From a virus, in IMG/VR virus record IMGVR_UViG_3300044904_000300, positions 1 to 64,000 of that record: 64,000 bases of DNA, one strand, 5' to 3'. This document shows, piece after piece, positions 5,025 through 33,840 of the stretch. The notes under the pieces were generated by a model. The model did not search any database. It was not told the origin of the DNA and saw only the letters and a program-made list of their open reading frames with translations. Each line of letters opens with the position of its first letter. Within the stretch, counting starts at the first letter, position 1. A program made the position numbers and the translations under genes.

Positions 5025-5711
5025 ATGCGTCGATTCTTAGCGCGTGTCCTTCTGGCAGTCGGATGCGTTCTCTTCGCTCATGCGGCAATCGCACAGGAAC
5101 AAGAGCCTGAGTTATTGCCGTCGCGTGTGATCGAGTTCGTTGGTGTTCCGGCATTTCCAGAAGTGGCTACGCTATCACTATCAGCAACGCAGCAAACGAT
5201 GTCGGAGAAAGGCATCGAAGTGCTTAAGGTGTTTGAGTCATTCCGGGCTCGTGCGTATCGGGACGGGGGAGGTGGCTACTCCATCGGTTACGGCTTTCAA
5301 ACATGGAAGGGTCGTCGTGTGACGCTGCGTTATCCTGGCCGCGTGACACAGGTTCAGGCTGACGCGGAACTACAGCGTCAACTTGAGACCTATGTGGGTA
5401 TCGTGCTGGATGTGAGCACGGACCTTCCACAAGAAGCGTTTGATGCGTTTGTCAGTATTGCCTATAACCTCGGACGGGTGAACAACACCATCTGTTACAA
5501 GGTGACCCATCAGCTTCCCATTACGGTTCGGGATTTCCTGTCTACCGCGAAGGTGCGGAATCGGACCGACTGGCGGCTCCAGGGTCGTCGGACTCGGGAG
5601 TTCTTAATGATGTTGGGCGACTACGAGGCCGCGATGGCTCCTGTGGAATCTCCGCATGAGGTACGGGCGACGATGGCTGCGTTAGCCAAGCGTCCTGTCC
5701 ATTTGTTCTAG
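5025..5711 (+). CDS. secreted GH24 lysozyme (endolysin)
   Basis: Cleaves peptidoglycan glycan strands for host lysis. The first 24 residues form a classic Sec signal (RRFLARVLLAVGCVLF core, AIA-Q cleavage site), so export would not strictly need a holin pore. The catalytic domain begins near residue 60: the Glu in KVFESFRARAY with GGGYSIGYGFQTW is the T4-lysozyme-type E-D/C-T arrangement, and EAFDAFVSIAYNLG follows. Length 228. SD AGGAGG sits six bases before the ATG. ThyX follows after seven bases, so they are probably co-transcribed. The leader carries a terminator-like hairpin. Confidence 0.88.
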   Translation: MRRFLARVLLAVGCVLFAHAAIAQEQEPELLPSRVIEFVGVPAFPEVATLSLSATQQTMSEKGIEVLKVFESFRARAYRDGGGGYSIGYGFQTWKGRRVTLRYPGRVTQVQADAELQRQLETYVGIVLDVSTDLPQEAFDAFVSIAYNLGRVNNTICYKVTHQLPITVRDFLSTAKVRNRTDWRLQGRRTREFLMMLGDYEAAMAPVESPHEVRATMAALAKRPVHLF

Positions 5712-7921: not shown

Positions 7922-7950
7922 TTGACAACGGCAGAATGCTGTGTTATACT
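7922..7950 (+). promoter_or_regulatory. strong sigma-70-type promoter for ncRNA
   Basis: TTGACA 7922-7927, 17-base spacer, TATACT 7945-7950; expected start near 7957. What follows is highly structured and not convincingly coding. Confidence 0.85.
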
Positions 7951-7956
7951 GTATTC

Positions 7957-8165
7957 CGCAATGAAGTTTGAACGGTCGAGGCCAAGATGTCCCGTATTGA
8001 GAACGTTAGACGTTCATAAACAGGGACCCGGTGTGGCAGGAGAAGTGGAACAGCCGTTGAGTGTTCCCGCCGTTCAAAGAGTTTGGGTGTTGAGGACGAA
8101 CAGCAGAGTCGCCGGCCTGTCACGTCGGCAATAGCGGGGGCAGCACCCGTCAACACCGCCATATT
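7957..8165 (+). ncRNA. structured non-coding RNA, two domains
   Basis: Starts just below a strong promoter. Domain 1 is closed by a perfect nine-pair helix, TTTGAACGG (7967-7975) with CCGTTCAAA (8070-8078). Inside are GTCCC/GGGAC enclosing GAACGT/ACGTTC, and a GGAACA/TGTTCC hairpin. Domain 2 is closed by GGTGTTGA (8086-8093) with TCAACACC (8150-8157) and holds a GCCG/CGGC hairpin. A 57-codon reading frame crosses it but looks like chance. I match it to no known RNA family. An HNH gene with its own late promoter follows. Confidence 0.65.
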
Positions 8166-8183
8166 GTGGAGTAGTCGTGGATA

Positions 8184-8190
8184 CTAAATA
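8184..8190 (+). promoter_or_regulatory. late promoter (CTAAATA) for HEG
   Basis: CTAAATA six bases before the ATG at 8197; T4 late geometry puts +1 at 8196. Confidence 0.6.
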
Positions 8191-8196
8191 ATTTGT

Positions 8197-8778
8197 ATGG
8201 AAAACACAGATTATAAGGTATCCACCGAATACGATGGAAGACAGCGAAAGTTATTTCTTCGATGTTTATGTGAGGTGTGTGGTAATGAAATCTGGGCGCC
8301 CAAATACCGGTCGCGCAAGTTTTGTTCTTTGGAGTGTGCTGCGGCATCACGTAAAATAACGAAAGTTTTGGTATCATGCCATACTTGCGGTAAAACATTT
8401 TGGAAGTATCCTCGGTGTATTACAAAAAGTAACTCGGGGTTGTTCTTTTGCTCACGTAAATGTAAAGAATACGCGCAAAGTTTGGCGGGAGGCTGTAAAG
8501 AAATACAACCTGCACACTATGGAACGGGAAGTGGGTTAGAGCAATACCGCAACAATGCTTTCTGTGAATATGGTAAGGTATGTTGCGATTGCAAAGAGGC
8601 GCGAGAGCATTTACTTCAGGTGCATCACATCGATGGTGTGCGTGTGCATAACGACATTAAAAACCTTGAGGTTGTTTGTCCGACCTGTCACGTTCGTCGG
8701 CATTTGCGGTTACTTGACGGTCGTTGGGTGATGGATTTTAGGGGTCTGACGCCAAGAGAAATGTTGCAGAGTTTATAA
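8197..8778 (+). CDS. HNH homing endonuclease with zinc fingers
   Basis: 193 residues. Two N-terminal treble-clef-like zinc fingers (CEVCGNEIWAP...FCSLECAAASR and CHTCGKTF...FCSRKC) are followed by an HNH nuclease: CCDCKEAREHLLQVHHIDGVRV then NLEVVCPTCHVRRH. This fits a free-standing homing endonuclease inserted at the left edge of the tRNA island. AT-rich base use differs from flanking genes. Its own late promoter directly abuts the start codon. Confidence 0.88.
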   Translation: MENTDYKVSTEYDGRQRKLFLRCLCEVCGNEIWAPKYRSRKFCSLECAAASRKITKVLVSCHTCGKTFWKYPRCITKSNSGLFFCSRKCKEYAQSLAGGCKEIQPAHYGTGSGLEQYRNNAFCEYGKVCCDCKEAREHLLQVHHIDGVRVHNDIKNLEVVCPTCHVRRHLRLLDGRWVMDFRGLTPREMLQSL

Positions 8779-10257: not shown

Positions 10258-10286
10258 TTGACAAAAAGTATGTCCTGTGAGACAAT
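10258..10286 (+). promoter_or_regulatory. sigma-70-type promoter
   Basis: TTGACA 10258-10263, 17-base spacer, GACAAT 10281-10286, upstream of the gene at 10329 and probably of the following tRNAs. Confidence 0.65.
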
Positions 10287-11027: not shown

Positions 11028-11372
11028 ATGCGACGAGATTACAAGAGTGAACAGCTAGGAATACCGTATGGTACCGCGGTTCATCAACTGCGTAAGAGGA
11101 TGTTATTTCACTTAGCGCGGCAGTTGGGAATGACTGTGTGTTTTCATTGCGGAAAGGAAATAACAGAGCTTACGGAATTCTCGCTAGAGCACAAAATACC
11201 GTGGTTGCATAATGATGTGTCGCTATTTTGGAGCGTGGAAAACATTGCGTTTTCTCATTTGAAATGCAACACTGATGCCGGTGGAAAGAAAAGTAGATAT
11301 CGTTTGGGTCATTCCCCTTCGTCGGAAACTCGGGCAAAGATAAGCGAATCTCTGAAACAAAGAAATCGTTGA
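11028..11372 (+). CDS. HNH endonuclease
   Basis: 114 residues from the ATG five bases after tRNA-Ser. It has an HNH core, CFHCGKEITE...FSLEHKIPWLHNDVSLFWSVENIAFSHLKCN, and a NUMOD3-like end (SSETRAKISESLKQRN). It is short for an HEG but contains both halves. It sits between two tRNA genes with no promoter motif of its own and is probably read with the tRNA transcript. Homing to a tRNA-island site is inferred. Confidence 0.82.
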   Translation: MRRDYKSEQLGIPYGTAVHQLRKRMLFHLARQLGMTVCFHCGKEITELTEFSLEHKIPWLHNDVSLFWSVENIAFSHLKCNTDAGGKKSRYRLGHSPSSETRAKISESLKQRNR

Positions 11373-11579: not shown

Positions 11580-12011
11580 TTATGCTAATACCACTTTATC
11601 AAAAATGCGGAATGCTGGATGTTTTTTCGCGTAGTTGATAAGACCAGTTCTGCTTCCTGCGGCGCCGAATTTATGAGCGATTGAGTCGCTGGCTGACCAC
11701 ATTGCAAGCGCGATTTTGGCAGTTTTTGTTTCGGGGAAGTAAGTAAGATAAATGGGAACGACGGTATCATCTACGAGCCGGTCGAGTAAAGTGAGCATCG
11801 TATCGTGTGTGCAAATCTCTCGGTCCCACACATAAAGTTTCTTGGGCATAATGAGACCGCCGAGGTCGTAGACATTATCGGCCGAGATCCAATGATGTCC
11901 GACCTCACGAAGTTCTGACCGTGTCGGATTCACGTAGATTTCGGTATACCCGTAGTTGCCCTTACCGCCACGAAGGAATTTCTCGATGAGGAACTGGTGG
12001 AATGTCAACAT
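11580..12011 (-). CDS. paralogue 4 of MLTFxQFL family
   Basis: 143 residues; last gene of a minus-strand run of four related genes sharing the N-terminus MLTFxQFLxEKF, a GYxEIYxNPT segment and a DLYVWDRExxxH segment followed by PIYLxY. I recognise no known family; the shared start resembles small T4-like phage proteins. Here the conserved parts are TFHQFLIEKFLRGG, YTEIYVNPTRSE and LYVWDREICTHD. Its gene follows paralogue 3 by a few bases, implying an operon expressed late (late promoter at 13404-13410). Confidence 0.7.
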   Translation of the reverse strand: MLTFHQFLIEKFLRGGKGNYGYTEIYVNPTRSELREVGHHWISADNVYDLGGLIMPKKLYVWDREICTHDTMLTLLDRLVDDTVVPIYLTYFPETKTAKIALAMWSASDSIAHKFGAAGSRTGLINYAKKHPAFRIFDKVVLA

Positions 12012-12013
12012 GA

Positions 12014-12424
12014 TTAGAACTTCTTGATGGAACTAAAGATTTTGAACGCTGGGTGTTTCTCAAGCCCTTCAATCATTTCGCGTTCGTCCTCGTCGCTCCA
12101 GCGGTCTTTTCCTGAAGCGAACCAACTGAAGGTCGCGATGCTAGCCTCGACGCCGTTGGTGGCTTTATTATAGTAGAGATAGAGCGGGATGAAGTCTTCG
12201 TTGCTCCTGATAACTTTCGGCTTGACTGCGGCGTGTTCCGCTTCATCGCGACTCCAGATGAAAAGGTCTTTGTTGGTGGCGAAGGCGCCGATTTGGTCAC
12301 CGCCCCGAGCGCACTGCATGACTTCATATTTGGTGGGGTTCTTATAGACTTCCCCGTAGCCGAATTGGCCGTCAACGCCGCAAAAGAACTTTTCGCGAAT
12401 GAGGAATTGTTTGAATGTCAGCAT
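12014..12424 (-). CDS. paralogue 3 of MLTFxQFL family
   Basis: 136 residues: TFKQFLIREKFFCGVDGQFGYGEVYKNPT at the start, DLFIWSRDEAEHAA in the middle, PLYLYY, and a charged C-terminus (HPAFKIFSSIKKF). It shares all the conserved blocks of the family and is intact. It is two bases from each neighbour, so it is part of the four-gene minus-strand operon. Function unknown. Confidence 0.7.
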   Translation of the reverse strand: MLTFKQFLIREKFFCGVDGQFGYGEVYKNPTKYEVMQCARGGDQIGAFATNKDLFIWSRDEAEHAAVKPKVIRSNEDFIPLYLYYNKATNGVEASIATFSWFASGKDRWSDEDEREMIEGLEKHPAFKIFSSIKKF

Positions 12425-12426
12425 GG

Positions 12427-12916
12427 TTAGATCGTTATCGTGTCGCCGTCATAGGTGACGATTTTCTTGAACTTCTTGAGTTGCGGATGCCCCTTGACAC
12501 GACGACGCATAATTGAAAGTTCTGGGTCACTCGCTGTGGACTTTTCGAGTTTCTTGTTGTCTGCGTCCGAAAAGCTAAACGACGATGCGGAAATGGCCAG
12601 CACGTCGGGGATGTAAAAGAAGTAGCAATACAGCGGGAACCAGTTGGGTTCGAGTTTGGAAATTTCATAGCTTGCTGAATGGTGTTCGGCGTTCTCCCGA
12701 TCAAAGACATAGAGGTCCTTGCTTGTGAGAATGCCTCCAGCGTAGTAACACATCTTTCCGTAGTCTTCTTCAAGGGACCACGGAGCATGTTGCTTGTGTC
12801 CTACTTTAGTCCATTCGATTTTCGTGGGGTTCTTGTAGATTTCGGCGTACGCCGTAGTTCGCATCAAAGCCCTTGAGGAACTTTTCGATGAGGAAGTGTT
12901 CGTAGGTAAGCAGCAT
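12427..12916 (-). pseudogene. paralogue 2 of MLTFxQFL family, frameshifted
   Basis: The family start is present from the ATG at 12916 (LLTYEHFLIEKFLKGFDANYG), but the conserved AYAEIYKNPT block is in another frame. One extra base near 12850-12851 (GGCGTACGCC where GGCTACGCC would keep frame) separates them. Downstream, the frame continues with DLYVFDRENAEHHS and a Lys-rich end. It may be a real inactivating mutation, a sequencing error, or an element read by frameshifting. A shorter protein from an internal ATG at 12867 is possible. Confidence 0.65.
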
Positions 12917-12927
12917 AGTTTGACAAC

Positions 12928-13398
12928 TTAATAGGAATCGCTCTCATTATCAACAGCCACTCGGCTGAAGATTTTGAAGGGCTTGAGTTTTCGGCAATAC
13001 CGAACAAGTTCGTTGTTTGATCCGAATTGCGCGTCACCCATTTCGCCTTGGCTGTATTCAGCAATTCGGACAGTTGCGGCCTTTGTCCTCGGGTCAAATC
13101 GGAGATAGATGCACTCCACACTATCGCCTTTATGCGGGATGTTGTGCCAAACAGTCGAGTGCGTGGCTTGTCCGCGGTCCCATAGATAAAGGTGGTCGTC
13201 GTGGATGAGACCCCCGAGGTCGATGTTTTTGGTGCCAGTTCCGAGACGATTGATGGAAGAGCTATCGTTGTTACGGTTTGCTTCGTATGCTAACTTGAGA
13301 ATTTCGAGATACTTCGGGTCCTTCCAGATTTCGGCATAACCGAAACCGTGGACCCCTTTGAGGAACCGTTCTGCGAGGAATTGAGCAAAAGAGAGCAT
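12928..13398 (-). CDS. paralogue 1 of MLTFxQFL family
   Basis: First gene of the minus-strand cassette. The start is placed at the ATG at 13398, matching the family start LSFAQFLAERFLKG and lying exactly five bases after the late motif CTAAATA. About 156 residues with GYAEIWKDPKYLE and LYLWDRGQATHS blocks. A longer upstream frame exists but lacks family similarity. Function unknown; late expression suggests a virion, packaging or host-takeover role. Confidence 0.7.
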   Translation of the reverse strand: MLSFAQFLAERFLKGVHGFGYAEIWKDPKYLEILKLAYEANRNNDSSSINRLGTGTKNIDLGGLIHDDHLYLWDRGQATHSTVWHNIPHKGDSVECIYLRFDPRTKAATVRIAEYSQGEMGDAQFGSNNELVRYCRKLKPFKIFSRVAVDNESDSY

Positions 13399-13403
13399 GA
13401 CGG

Positions 13404-13410
13404 TATTTAG
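13404..13410 (-). promoter_or_regulatory. late promoter (CTAAATA) for paralogue cassette
   Basis: Minus-strand CTAAATA ending five bases before the ATG at 13398, so +1 would be the first base of the start codon. Confidence 0.65.
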
Positions 13411-13585
13411 AAACAAGCGGATACGGGGAAGGACTGGTGTTCGCGGCCGCTTCTGTAGAGCGACACCCACTGGACGGGCATATGTTCCGTAGGGCCTTCT
13501 CGTTTTTGAAACGATTTAAAATGTTCATAAGTATTGACATTACACGGGTTAGCATCAATTACTATGGACGTTATGAAACGATTTT
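13411..13585 (+). other. spacer with weak promoter before tRNA-His
   Basis: TTGACA at 13534-13539 is followed at about 17-20 bases by AT-rich ATTACTATGG, a plausible weak promoter for the tRNAs downstream. The rest shows no convincing gene. Confidence 0.35.
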
Positions 13586-15148: not shown

Positions 15149-15499
15149 ATGAAGCGCAAACTTTTCTCTGTAACGATAGACGATTGCCGCGTGGACACCT
15201 TTTGCACAGGAGGCCACGGCGGACAGAACCAGAACGCGAAGAAGATGGGCGTGCGGATTACTCATCGACCGTCCGGTGCTGTGGGCGAATGCCGCGAGGA
15301 GCGTCACCAGCATACGAACAAGGTTCGGGCGTTCACGCGCATGGCGGAGACCGCGGAGTTTCGGAATTGGGTGCGCCTGACTGCGGCCCAGATACAAACG
15401 GGTAAGTCTGTGGACGACCTCGTAGATGAGGCGATGAACATGGAGAACTTGCGCGTGGAAGTGAAAGACGAGGATGGAAAATGGACACCGGAAAAGTAA
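15149..15499 (+). CDS. GGQ release-factor-like (ribosome rescue / peptidyl-tRNA hydrolase) protein
   Basis: 116 residues containing the catalytic GGQ of class I release factors (Gly24-Gly25-Gln26 in TGGHGGQNQNAKKMGVRITH) and a basic, helical C-terminus (EERHQHTNKVRAF). It lacks the stop-codon recognition domain, so it resembles ArfB/YaeJ or RF-H-type proteins that free nascent chains from stalled ribosomes or repair-linked substrates. It begins eight bases after tRNA-Pro and overlaps the RNA ligase gene by 19 bases. RF-H genes are often beside the RNA ligase RtcB, which makes this pairing notable. A tmRNA is also encoded in this window. Confidence 0.88.
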   Translation: MKRKLFSVTIDDCRVDTFCTGGHGGQNQNAKKMGVRITHRPSGAVGECREERHQHTNKVRAFTRMAETAEFRNWVRLTAAQIQTGKSVDDLVDEAMNMENLRVEVKDEDGKWTPEK

Positions 15500-16083
15500 A
15501 TGAGTTTGTAGGAATGCCCAAGATGGCTCGGCTCTCCCGTGAAATCATTATCACGGAGAAGATCGACGGGACGAATGGCCAGATCTTCATCGCGCCGGAG
15601 TGTGCGCCAATCACGCTTGAATCGGGCCGCGTGGTTCCGTTCCTGGTGGGATCGCGCACTCGCTGGATCTTCCCCGAGAGTGATAACCATGGATTCGCAA
15701 AGTGGGCCTATGAGAACGAGCAGGGCTTGCTTGCGCTCGGTCCGGGCCGACACTTTGGTGAGTGGTGGGGACCAGGGATTCAGCGTGGTTATGGGCTACG
15801 GGAAAAGCGTTTCAGCCTCTTCAACGTCGTGCGATGGGGGCAGCCGGAACCAGGACGTGTGTTCCATACGGTGCCGGTGCTCTACAGAGGGATGTTTACT
15901 ACGGATGCGGTCGGGACGGCGTTGGATATCCTGCGCGAAGCGGGGTCTCTTGCGTCTCCAGGGTTCATGCGTCCCGAAGGTGTCGTCGTGTATCACGTCG
16001 CGGGGAACGTCGGCTTTAAGAAAACGCTTGAAAACGACGAGTTGCCAAAATCTCTAGTGAAGGAATTTAGCTATGAAGTATGA
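15481..16083 (+). CDS. RNA ligase (Rnl2-like nucleotidyltransferase)
   Basis: 200 residues with the ligase motifs in order: motif I TEKIDGTNG (Lys27, the adenylated lysine), motif III-like FGEWWGPGIQRGY, motif IV PEGVVVYH and motif V GFKKTLEND. It joins 3'-OH and 5'-phosphate RNA ends; in T4 such enzymes repair tRNAs cut by host anticodon nucleases. It is short and probably lacks a C-terminal domain. It is translationally coupled to the GGQ protein and overlaps the next gene. Confidence 0.85.
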   Translation: MDTGKVNEFVGMPKMARLSREIIITEKIDGTNGQIFIAPECAPITLESGRVVPFLVGSRTRWIFPESDNHGFAKWAYENEQGLLALGPGRHFGEWWGPGIQRGYGLREKRFSLFNVVRWGQPEPGRVFHTVPVLYRGMFTTDAVGTALDILREAGSLASPGFMRPEGVVVYHVAGNVGFKKTLENDELPKSLVKEFSYEV

Positions 16084-16306
16084 GGATGAGCGGTATATGA
16101 CGAGTAAGCAGATGGCGATTATTGCCATGACTAAGGCGTTGACGAAGGCAAAGATTCCTCACGGCATCGATGCGAACGGACACGCGCTTGTAATGTGGTG
16201 GGACTTTGAAACGACGGAGATGGTCAAGGCAGGCAGCATCAATCATTTTCGGCAGCAGTGGGTGGAAGATGCGCCGAAATCGCTTGACACCGCAGCGGAA
16301 GTGTGA
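16073..16306 (+). CDS. hypothetical protein
   Basis: 77 residues overlapping the end of the RNA ligase gene by 11 bases. Sequence features are an alternating charged N-terminus and a helical middle (SKQMAIIAMTKALTKAKIP), then HALVMWWDFETTEMV. It is likely co-translated with the ligase. No family recognised. Confidence 0.6.
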   Translation: MKYEDERYMTSKQMAIIAMTKALTKAKIPHGIDANGHALVMWWDFETTEMVKAGSINHFRQQWVEDAPKSLDTAAEV

Positions 16307-16312
16307 GATACT
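16284..16312 (+). promoter_or_regulatory. sigma-70-type promoter
   Basis: TTGACA 16284-16289, 17-base spacer, GATACT 16307-16312 preceded by GTGTGA. Expected +1 near 16319, at the ATG of the next gene (16320): a leaderless message. Confidence 0.8.
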
Positions 16313-17535: not shown

Positions 17536-17609
17536 GCCGGATTCGATTATTGGTAGGTCCGCGGTTTTTCAGGCCGCCGAAGTCGGTTCGATCCCGACAT
17601 CCGGTACCA
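17536..17609 (+). tRNA. tRNA-Glu(UUC)
   Basis: Acceptor GCCGGAT/ATCCGGT, anticodon arm GCGGT-TTTTCAG-GCCGC, T arm GTCGG-TTCGATC-CCGAC, encoded CCA. Confidence 0.92.
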
Positions 17610-17619
17610 TATTTTTTAC

Positions 17620-17648
17620 TTGACATTCATCGCACGAAGAGCTATACT
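17620..17648 (+). promoter_or_regulatory. sigma-70-type promoter for large ncRNA
   Basis: TTGACA 17620-17625, 17-base spacer, TATACT 17643-17648; +1 expected near 17655, exactly where the closing helix of the RNA begins. Confidence 0.85.
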
Positions 17649-17654
17649 GTATAT

Positions 17655-18124
17655 CTCTTTGCGAGGAATTTGACAACTGAATAATAGGACCCTGGCTGAA
17701 AACCTCGTTCTACGGGGGTAAGGCGACTCGCACAAGGGGGTGTGGGGGCACATATGGGGGCACCGAGGATAGCGTATCTGGCGGCCGTGCTAGATCAACC
17801 CTGATAGGGCACGGACAAGCGGGTAGTTAGCTGGTAGCTTATACTTTAAAGTATCAGTAGACGGCGGGCTTGAAGGTCAAATCCTTCCGTTATGCAGATC
17901 GTTTGGAACGTGCTTGCAAGCGTTTCAGACGGGAGTAACGTGGCGTAATACATTCAGAGTGCTTAAGAAAGTTTCGGGATCGATGTGGTTCCGAGGGTCC
18001 TATTATTCAGTTGTCGAAGAGGTTGGGAAACGAGCGGCACTAACGCTAAACGTCGGGTGTCCGTAGCGTTCGAGCGACACCTAGGCTGGTCCGGCTTGCC
18101 CGGAATGCAGCTTGCTCGTTTCCC
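17655..18124 (+). ncRNA. large structured non-coding RNA, about 470 nt
   Basis: No credible reading frame. A perfect 22-pair helix joins 17672-17693 to 17994-18015, closing a 300-base domain A, with CTCTT (17655-17659) able to pair AAGAG (18017-18021). Domain A contains CCGTGC/GCACGG and ATACTT/AAGTAT hairpins and four runs of five G between 17714 and 17760. Domain B is closed by a perfect 11-pair helix (18025-18035 with 18114-18124). It holds AACGCTA/TAGCGTT and a crossing GGTGTC/GACACC pairing, i.e. a likely pseudoknot. Size, tRNA-island location and ornate helices recall GOLLD or ROOL RNAs, but I cannot match it to either. A vWA protein gene follows 24 bases later. Confidence 0.82.
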
Positions 18125-18147: not shown

Positions 18148-18849
18148 ATGAAGAATCTGATGGATATTACGTTCATCTTGGACCGTAGCGGAAGCATGTC
18201 GTCCATGAGGAACGACGTGATTGGTGGGTATGAGTCGTTCGTGAAGAAGCAGCGTGAGGAACGGGGAGATTGCGTGTTTTCTCTCGTTCAGTTTGACGAC
18301 CAGTATGAGACACCGTTTACCGCGGTGCCCATCCAGCATGTCAGCCCGAAGTTGGATTATTCCCCCCGCGGCAGCACGGCGCTTCGTGACGCGATTGGTC
18401 GGACGATCAACGCGGTTGGAGAACGTCTCCGCAGATTGAAAGAGCGGGATCGCCCGAGCAAGGTGATTATCGTAGTCATGACGGACGGGGAAGAAAACGC
18501 ATCGCACGAGTTCACTCAGCCGCAGATTAAGGACATGGTCAAGCACCAGTCCGACCAGTATCAGTGGGAATTCCTGTTCCTGGGTGCGAACATCGATTCG
18601 TTCCATGTTGCGGGAAGCTATGGTGTGCCGTCCTGGGCAACATCAAACTACACCTACACCAGTGGTGGACTCCGCGCGGTGTTTGATACTGTATCGTGTT
18701 ACGCATCGTCCGCACGAAATGGTGAGCAGTTCAACGGTACGTTGTCTGCTTGTCAGTTGAGCAACGAAGCGAAGCAGGATGCGAATAAGACGGGAACGTT
18801 TGTGTCGGGAACGCAGCCGTCAACGCCGACCGTGGCTTCGAAAATCTAA
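18148..18849 (+). CDS. von Willebrand factor A domain protein
   Basis: 233 residues from the ATG with SD TGGAGAA upstream. The vWA fold is complete: the MIDAS metal site DRSGSMSS near residue 10, Thr in GSTALRD near 84, and MTDGEENAS near 124, with Rossmann-like strands between. It resembles stand-alone TerY-type vWA proteins that mediate metal-dependent protein binding. The C-terminus is Ser/Thr/Pro-rich. It lies directly downstream of the large ncRNA and shares its transcript direction. Confidence 0.85.
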   Translation: MKNLMDITFILDRSGSMSSMRNDVIGGYESFVKKQREERGDCVFSLVQFDDQYETPFTAVPIQHVSPKLDYSPRGSTALRDAIGRTINAVGERLRRLKERDRPSKVIIVVMTDGEENASHEFTQPQIKDMVKHQSDQYQWEFLFLGANIDSFHVAGSYGVPSWATSNYTYTSGGLRAVFDTVSCYASSARNGEQFNGTLSACQLSNEAKQDANKTGTFVSGTQPSTPTVASKI

Positions 18850-27764: not shown

Positions 27765-27889
27765 GGGTCTGTAGCTCAGGTCCGGTTAGAGCATCTATGT
27801 ATTCCGAAATGGATACTAGTTTTGAGACAGGAACGCCCAATTGATAAGTGACTTGTAGAAGGTCGGTGGTTCAAATCCACCCAGACCCA
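27765..27889 (+). tRNA. tRNA-like gene interrupted in the anticodon loop
   Basis: Acceptor GGGTCTG/CAGACCC, D arm GAGC-type and T arm GGTGG-TTCAAAT-CCACC are normal, and anticodon-stem strands TCTAT and GTAGA pair, but about 55 bases sit where a seven-base loop belongs. CCA is not encoded (GCA follows). The identity cannot be read. The insert is too short for a group I intron. Confidence 0.6.
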
Positions 27890-32964: not shown

Positions 32965-33504
32965 ATGGAAATAGCAGCTTGTAAATGTGGGGTGTGTGGA
33001 GCGGAATTTGAACGACCGGCAAAAGAAGTCCGCCGGTGTGCTCGACGGGGTCTAAACACTTATTGCGGCACGAAATGCGCTTTGGTGGCCACGAAGCAAA
33101 ACCTTAAACGCGGAGGAAATCCGGATGCGTTGGTGCTTGCTCGGGCAGCCAGATGGGGTGTGCCCAACGAGTTCCGTGAGCATCTACGAAGAGCACGCTC
33201 GCACTCTAAGGTGCGCGGCCGCGAGTGTAACATCACCGAGGAACATCTACAAGAGGTTTGGTTGCAGCAACAAGGGAAATGTGCGTATACCGGCATAGCA
33301 CTTCTTAACCCAACGTCGCTAACAAAGGCCGAGGACCCCGGGTGCCGCGCCAGTCTTGACCGTATCGACTCGTCACTAGGGTATGTTATTGGTAATGTTC
33401 AGTTTATTTCTGTGATGATGAACTATGCCAAATCGTCCTTTACCGATGCCGAAGTAAAGAAATTTGTTGACGCCGTTCGTAAAGGGTGTTATAATTACTC
33501 TTGA
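32965..33504 (+). CDS. HNH homing endonuclease
   Basis: About 179 residues from the ATG with GGAGG five bases upstream (a GTG at 32953 is the alternative). N-terminal zinc finger CKCGVCGAEFERP...YCGTKCALVA, then HNH: CAYTGIALLNP...RASLDRIDSSLGYVIGNVQFISVMMNYAKSSF. It lies immediately before the permuted tmRNA, whose sequence begins at the HEG stop; it may home on the tmRNA locus. Confidence 0.88.
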   Translation: MEIAACKCGVCGAEFERPAKEVRRCARRGLNTYCGTKCALVATKQNLKRGGNPDALVLARAARWGVPNEFREHLRRARSHSKVRGRECNITEEHLQEVWLQQQGKCAYTGIALLNPTSLTKAEDPGCRASLDRIDSSLGYVIGNVQFISVMMNYAKSSFTDAEVKKFVDAVRKGCYNYS

Positions 33505-33840
33505 TAATTGATGACGTATTTGATGCGTCTCGCGGACCTCGGGGCAGTACCGAGCCGGTCCACCATAAAATAGCGCCGAACCTCAAAGGAGGTCACTGGG
33601 TAGCCAGACGGCGCGACAGAACGGGCCGGAAATAGATTCGACGGGAGATGACAGAGGATATCGAGGTTATCCGTCGAGCACCGACGTAAATCAGAGCAAA
33701 CACACAATTGACAACGAAATGTTGCCGATGGCTGCCTAAGAGCAGTCCGGGGTGTTGGCGTCGTACCCTGTCAAACAAAGCACGCTGCGCTAGATGGAAA
33801 CTCCTAGCTAGGGAAGCCGGCTCTCCTGAAGTTACAAACC
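33505..33840 (+). ncRNA. ssrA: circularly permuted (two-piece) tmRNA
   Basis: The 3' acceptor piece comes first: T arm CTCGG-GGCAGTA-CCGAG (33538-33554), acceptor strand CCGGTCC (33555-33561), A and CCA (33563-33565). After an intervening segment the 5' piece begins with GGGCCGG (33623-33629), which pairs perfectly with CCGGTCC, followed by the tmRNA hallmark GATTCGACGGG (33635-33645). GTCTC upstream of the T arm can pair with GAGAT after the hallmark (P2). The tag frame reads SKHTIDNEMLPMAA then TAA (33695-33739). tmRNA frees stalled ribosomes and tags the peptide for proteolysis. Ends of the processed pieces are estimates. Confidence 0.9.

Follow-up and report, generated by a model that had tools for sequence, protein, structure and literature searches.

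At positions ~17665–18018 of the window, the 64,000-nucleotide stretch of DNA that was analysed, sequence comparison supports a structured RNA that is conserved, noncoding and promoter-driven and that lies in the tRNA island of a phage. The predicted molecule, domain I, is ~350 nt in size; it is closed by one very long helix, P1, and its 5′ end carries a boxA-like element that lies largely within this helix. The presence of boxA in the closing helix is a new observation. With this RNA, one family absent from Rfam 15 joins the few elaborate RNAs that phages encode in tRNA islands.

The window covers the first 64 kb of an IMG/VR virus record of 135.8 kb (G000), which we judged from its baseplate wedge protein to be a T4-like myophage; a search of viral contigs found no relatives of this baseplate protein. 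Among deposited phages, one that infects the acidobacterium Tunturiibacter has the nearest ribonucleotide reductase (61.6%). The tRNA island spans 8.8–28.3 kb of the window; it contains ~30 tRNAs and one RNA ligase gene (15481–16083). The elements of the RNA locus and its neighbors are as follows.

17536–17609: tRNA-Glu, directly upstream of the structured RNA locus
17613–17648, plus strand: sigma70 promoter (TTTTTACTTGACA, 17 nt, TATACT), matching 11 of 12 consensus positions
17665–17683, plus strand: boxA-like element GGAATTTGACAACTGAATA, 16/19 to GCTCTTTGACAACTGAATA; the homologue L004 is exact (5647–5665, 19/19)
17669–17693, plus strand: P1 5′ strand (leader strand), overlapping boxA
17694–17993, plus strand: domain I body with helices P2–P12, within P1; invariant stretches include GAGGATAGCGTATCTGG and ATCAGTAGACGG
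17695–17697/17722–17724, plus strand: P2; U-G becomes A-U, a compensatory change
17703–17708/17712–17717, plus strand: P2a
17729–17744, plus strand: P3 hairpin; one side changed, pairing retained
17759–17763/17959–17963, plus strand: P4, inner closing helix; two compensatory changes
17770–17773 and 17775–17780 with 17820–17829, plus strand: P5, enclosing P6; three one-sided changes, all pairs retained
17785–17791/17808–17814, plus strand: P6; two compensatory changes and one one-sided; invariant loop segment CAACCCTGA
17830–17836/17852–17858, plus strand: P7 hairpin, invariant
17872–17887, plus strand: P8 hairpin GAAGG-TCAAAT-CCTTC, in L004 GGGAG-CTAAT-CTCCC; three compensatory changes (hand alignment)
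17888–17891/17937–17940, plus strand: P10
17906–17911/17920–17925, plus strand: P11 with UUGCAA loop; four compensatory changes (hand alignment)
17975–17993, plus strand: P12 hairpin, adjoining P1; one compensatory change
17994–18018, plus strand: P1 3′ strand (trailer strand)
18025–18124, plus strand: domain II, an 11-bp stem and a possible H-type pseudoknot; window lineage only
18148–18849, plus strand: vWA-domain protein gene (phrog_7371), the next gene 3′ of the RNA

P1 consists of 25 contiguous base pairs, one of them G-U, formed by two strands 300 nt apart. The preliminary description of this DNA had reported a 22-pair helix around 300 bases; the helix exists and is longer than described. 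P1 is the top inverted repeat of the 22-kb island. The claim that such pairing goes beyond chance also holds: in 60 dinucleotide shuffles, with loops of at least 100 nt, the longest helix was 18 pairs and the mean was 11.5. The fold of the region 17655–18124 has an energy of −192.9 kcal/mol, compared to −157.7 ± 5.8 for shuffled sequences (z −6.1; 0 of 100 shuffles). As previously noted, no coding frame is convincing; the longest ORF is 56–67 residues in length, and gaps of 1, 3 and 13 nt relative to L004 break the frames.

L004 (IMG/VR contig 3300043174_000026) is 36 kb in size and has the same gene order; it was reached via the vWA protein. Its RNA occupies the same position in the island and, folded on its own, gives a z of −6.0. 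Upstream of the vWA gene, identity between the window and L004 is 75% over 438 columns, and ~73% for the RNA alone; it is 63% for the vWA gene and 54–61% for three other neighboring genes. P1, P2, P2a, P3, P5, P6, P7, P8 and P12 are common to the independent folds of the two sequences, and P4, P10 and P11 were derived by comparing them. The homologue and compensatory changes proposed earlier as a check were both found: 89 pairs are shared, none is broken, 14 carry two-sided and 7 carry one-sided changes, with P8 and P11 aligned by hand. In the untouched MAFFT alignment, from which P8, P10 and P11 were left out, all 74 pairs are kept in the two sequences, with 7 double changes; when the partners were slid by 1–3 columns as a control, 35–42% were paired and no double change was seen. 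The observed covariation, which comes from two homologues and a structure derived partly from both, was matched in 3 of 500 cases when the 3′ letters were shuffled, about the limit of two-sequence evidence. In P1, 21 of the 23 shared pairs are invariant, and one U-A pair has become C-G in L004. Such invariance is as expected if the sequence of P1 is read in some way beyond its pairing.

So far, the window and L004 are the two members found. The exact P1 pattern has no match in viral contigs, and the sole true match of three internal RNA patterns in these contigs is the L004 contig; five further candidates (L018–L022) are chance matches, judged by their sequences and their lack of tRNAs. No match to an RNA pattern was found in genome contigs. 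In 55 loci, covariance model R1 (17694–17832) recovered the two members and, by chance, L166 at 15 bits; in 31 further records it recovered nothing. A scan of 399 genomes from a single Acidobacteriota class gave one match (L193), which lies inside an apparent glycosidase gene and was rejected as chance. BLAST of the window and L004 gave no match among phages and one 28-nt chance match among plasmids. A third contig, G003, terminates within the promoter region, its last 42 bp being identical to L004; among the NrdJ relatives, one contig (L029) stops before the locus and another (L030) stops within the RNA promoter region.

The preliminary description had depicted a giant, two-domain molecule of about 470 nt, and in this respect it needs to be revised. 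The perfect 11-pair helix of domain II is present (18025–18035/18114–18124), and so are the crossing helices of pseudoknot type, AACGCTA (18042–18048) with TAGCGTT (18064–18070) and GGTGTC (18056–18061) with GACACC (18076–18081). A comparable pseudoknot occurs in 13 of 3000 shuffles of the domain II interior, and the z of domain II is −3.6. However, domain II is absent from L004, where only 13 nt separate the end of P1 from the vWA ATG. By this comparison the conserved unit is therefore domain I alone, which at ~350 nt does not count as giant, and the 100-nt domain II is a lineage-specific addition.

The promoter boxes, TTGACA (17620–17625) and TATACT (17643–17648), are separated by 17 nt. The promoter is present as had been described, whereas its predicted start site is not exactly at the base of the helix: +1 falls at ~17655, ~14 nt 5′ of P1. 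L004 has an equivalent promoter, TTGACA-17-TATATT, at 5602–5630. Three other promoter-like sites in the island (7922–7950, 10258–10286 and 16284–16312, all plus strand) recur at matching places in L004, the window/L004 pairs being 7922/292, 10258/1926, 16284/4831 and 17620/5602. The leader behind the 7922 promoter (7957–8190) was considered as a second RNA of this kind and rejected (fold z −1.2). One imperfect 20-bp hairpin (8177–8225, plus strand), located 3′ of the same promoter, extends across the start codon of the ORF at 8197 and may control its translation.

In L004, the P1 5′ strand and the few bases preceding it read GCTCTTTGACAACTGAATA, an exact boxA; this element, and hence the rRNA-operon-like layout of the locus, had been overlooked. 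With up to three mismatches allowed, ~0.1 boxA is expected per genome. Bacterial contigs contain the 18-mer lacking the first G of GCTCTTTGACAACTGAATA in at least 118 stretches, with ~7 estimated by chance, and G stands in front in 77 of the 80 matches listed. It is found 90–260 nt 5′ of 16S or in 16S–23S spacers (L050, L053, L054, L059, L083, L109 and L114) and ahead of CRISPR arrays (L087 and L096); owing to these locations, we identify it as boxA. In the window, positions 2–4 of the element are changed relative to L004 (GCTCT to GGAAT). Judged by the gamma-proteobacterial consensus GYTCTTTAANA (PMC5725501), the window boxA may be weak or dead.

The 18-mer is also present in 39 stretches of viral contigs, compared to ~2 expected (estimate), which extends rRNA-type boxA elements into phage tRNA islands. 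In islands of other phages (L167:543–560, L172:5833–5850 and L174:755–772), ~25–105 nt separate it from the tRNA that follows; phage tRNA arrays in general may use Nus antitermination. Two degenerate boxA candidates of the window, at 11364 and 12915, have five mismatches and are within chance. Inverted repeats beside boxA in other contigs (L157, L176 and others) were rejected as homologues of the RNA, as they resemble promoter or antisense-RNA repeats. In several Firmicutes contigs, matches to RF02913 ‘pemK RNA’ lie ~140–200 nt 3′ of boxA (L042:2933–2996, L043:5094–5171, L066:7557–7622 and L160:3335–3398), and a link between this motif and boxA antitermination is possible.

Like the rRNA units (rrnTAC), the phage RNA has a promoter, one long leader-trailer helix and structured RNA inside. 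A candidate boxA follows ~10 nt 3′ of the predicted start, with all 19 positions matched in L004 and 16 in the window, where positions 2–4 are lost; the leader-trailer helix beside boxA corresponds to the 25-bp P1, which begins within boxA. L083, a Bdellovibrionia rRNA operon, has a leader-trailer helix of 17 bp around 23S, which begins at the 3′ end of boxA (offset 14 of the 18-mer); in another rRNA operon (L075), the helices are comparable, shorter and more distal, from offset 22 or beyond. Compared to the L083 helix, P1 starts ~10 nt further 5′, within boxA, and therefore overlaps most of it. Different from the rRNA units, the phage unit encloses 300 nt that match no rRNA model of Rfam at E ≤ 10. 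The boxA-headed CRISPR arrays (L087 and L096) likewise have boxA before one long untranslated transcript, on which the polymerase is kept processive (PMC7862264); the phage RNA differs in that it has neither repeats nor spacers and in that its boxA sits in a helix.

The conservation of structure and promoter, the exact boxA of L004 and the boxA-helix adjacency of the bacterial 23S operon are the anatomy from which we infer Nus loading and displacement, RNase III processing, action in trans and its target. We give even weight for and against the reading that the locus produces one stable noncoding phage RNA of ~350 nt from a gene with the layout of a miniature rRNA operon, the RNA body acting in trans. 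boxA in the nascent RNA would load host NusB-S10 and the Nus complex on RNA polymerase, and the Nus-loaded polymerase would complete the untranslated RNA, avoiding Rho termination; boxA has been found to raise transcription of an untranslated CRISPR array (PMC7862264), and boxA-bound NusB has been proposed to keep the leader tethered for as long as the trailer has not emerged (PMC10250234). The emerging trailer strand would zip onto the leader, forming P1. Since boxA lies within P1, closure of the helix would take it up, so that the Nus proteins would be stripped and antitermination would end. RNase III would then cut P1 and free the body, which would act in trans, most likely in translation, because the phage supplies ~30 tRNAs and one tmRNA. 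The degenerate boxA of the window, the number of homologues (two) and the lack of a terminator separating P1 from the vWA gene count against this reading. The layout of boxA in the closing helix leads to a hypothesis on the Nus-dependent production of untranslated phage RNAs, which may also be considered for GOLLD and ROOL.

The RNA may instead be one cis-acting 5′ leader of the transcript of vWA, tRNA-Met and tRNA-Leu, which would either render the polymerase processive across the second, poorly translated half of the island or control vWA translation. P1 and the vWA gene are not separated by a convincing terminator; the promoter-initiated unit continues into vWA and the tRNAs, and the vWA gene is probably co-transcribed with the RNA. 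The 13-nt distance in L004 and the boxA elements known in tRNA islands of other phages also point in this direction. However, 11 other phage vWA genes have no such RNA upstream (no long helix, no boxA), three of them in tRNA-rich loci (L007, L012 and L016); the RNA is confined to this clade. The window lineage tolerates 100 nt inserted between RNA and gene, where L004 has none. The vWA homologues and this spacing weaken the cis-acting leader. In addition, burial of boxA in P1 would make antitermination shorter rather than longer. The known antitermination RNAs are far smaller than the 300-nt conserved body. HK022 put and Bacillus EAR are processive antitermination RNAs, structured and located at the transcript head; the phage RNA shares this location, whereas put and EAR are smaller, are not known to have a boxA-containing terminal helix and gave no Rfam match here. 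As no terminator is present, we retain the cis-acting leader as a tentative second explanation.

One bolder form of the trans-acting RNA goes further: antitermination would be self-limiting, with completion of the RNA displacing Nus; the phage would copy the logic by which rRNA operons are transcribed and assembled, and the released RNA would act on host translation or on the Nus machinery. We regard this whole scheme as rather unlikely.

That the RNA is a decoy, titrating NusB/S10 or pairing through its trailer (anti-boxA) with host pre-rRNA and thereby shutting down host rRNA synthesis, appears improbable. L004 does have an exact rrn-type boxA, with the complementary sequence at the 3′ end, and P1 varies less than the other helices do. 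However, the two P1 strands would sequester each other in the folded RNA, the boxA of the window is degenerate, and the conserved body would be superfluous.

GOLLD and ROOL are structured RNAs of phage tRNA islands whose function is unknown (PMC12286853), and size class and island context suggested one diverged member of a known large family (GOLLD, ROOL, OLE, Y RNA or other). We consider this very unlikely. As the preliminary description had it, GOLLD and ROOL do not match: a covariance search of 17655–18124 against Rfam 15, at the gathering thresholds and at E ≤ 10, found neither. At E ≤ 10 the only matches of the search were the upstream tRNA-Glu and one 12-bit chance match to Glutamine-II in the vWA gene, and the L004 RNA had none; tRNA-Glu was also the sole tRNA covariance match, the phage RNA giving none. 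Many GOLLD members exceed 800 nt and ROOL is ~660 nt, compared to ~350 nt here, and there is no sign of shared folds. The vWA neighbor prompted a comparison with Y RNA/YrlA and Ro60, which was rejected: Rfam Y RNA models gave no match, and the TROVE domain (PF05731) was found neither in G000 nor in the G001 fragment of 36 kb, with a positive control. The stable RNAs C and D of T4, whose function is unknown, are also encoded in a phage tRNA cluster; as generally described, they are much smaller (~120–140 nt). In its setting the phage RNA thus belongs with GOLLD and ROOL and in its layout with the rrn units, and it is a member of neither.

A MITE-like structured mobile element, with P1 as terminal inverted repeats, would account for one near-perfect 25-bp inverted repeat enclosing 300 nt, but it can practically be dismissed: G000 and G001 each have a single copy, at an identical location in both phages, the promoter outside the repeat is conserved, and compensatory changes occur within.

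Some other features of the window were observed. On the minus strand, four consecutive ORFs (11580–13470) are alike at their starts (TFHQFLIEKF, TFKQFLIREKF) and share an EIYKNPT motif; from their sequences they look like one tandem gene family within the tRNA island, and their homologues were not found in the L004 contig. The tRNA at 27765–27889 (plus strand, 48 bits) has 58 nt in the anticodon-loop region, where the tRNA model has 9. The ~50 extra bases are possibly one small intron or the mark of a decayed gene; a group I intron would have to be longer. At 33503–33739 (plus strand), where ARAGORN made no tmRNA call, the Rfam model tmRNA_permuted matches over its full length with 103 bits. 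This is one complete phage-borne permuted (two-piece) tmRNA, and its putative tag frame ends in HTIDNEMLPMAA, followed by a stop codon.
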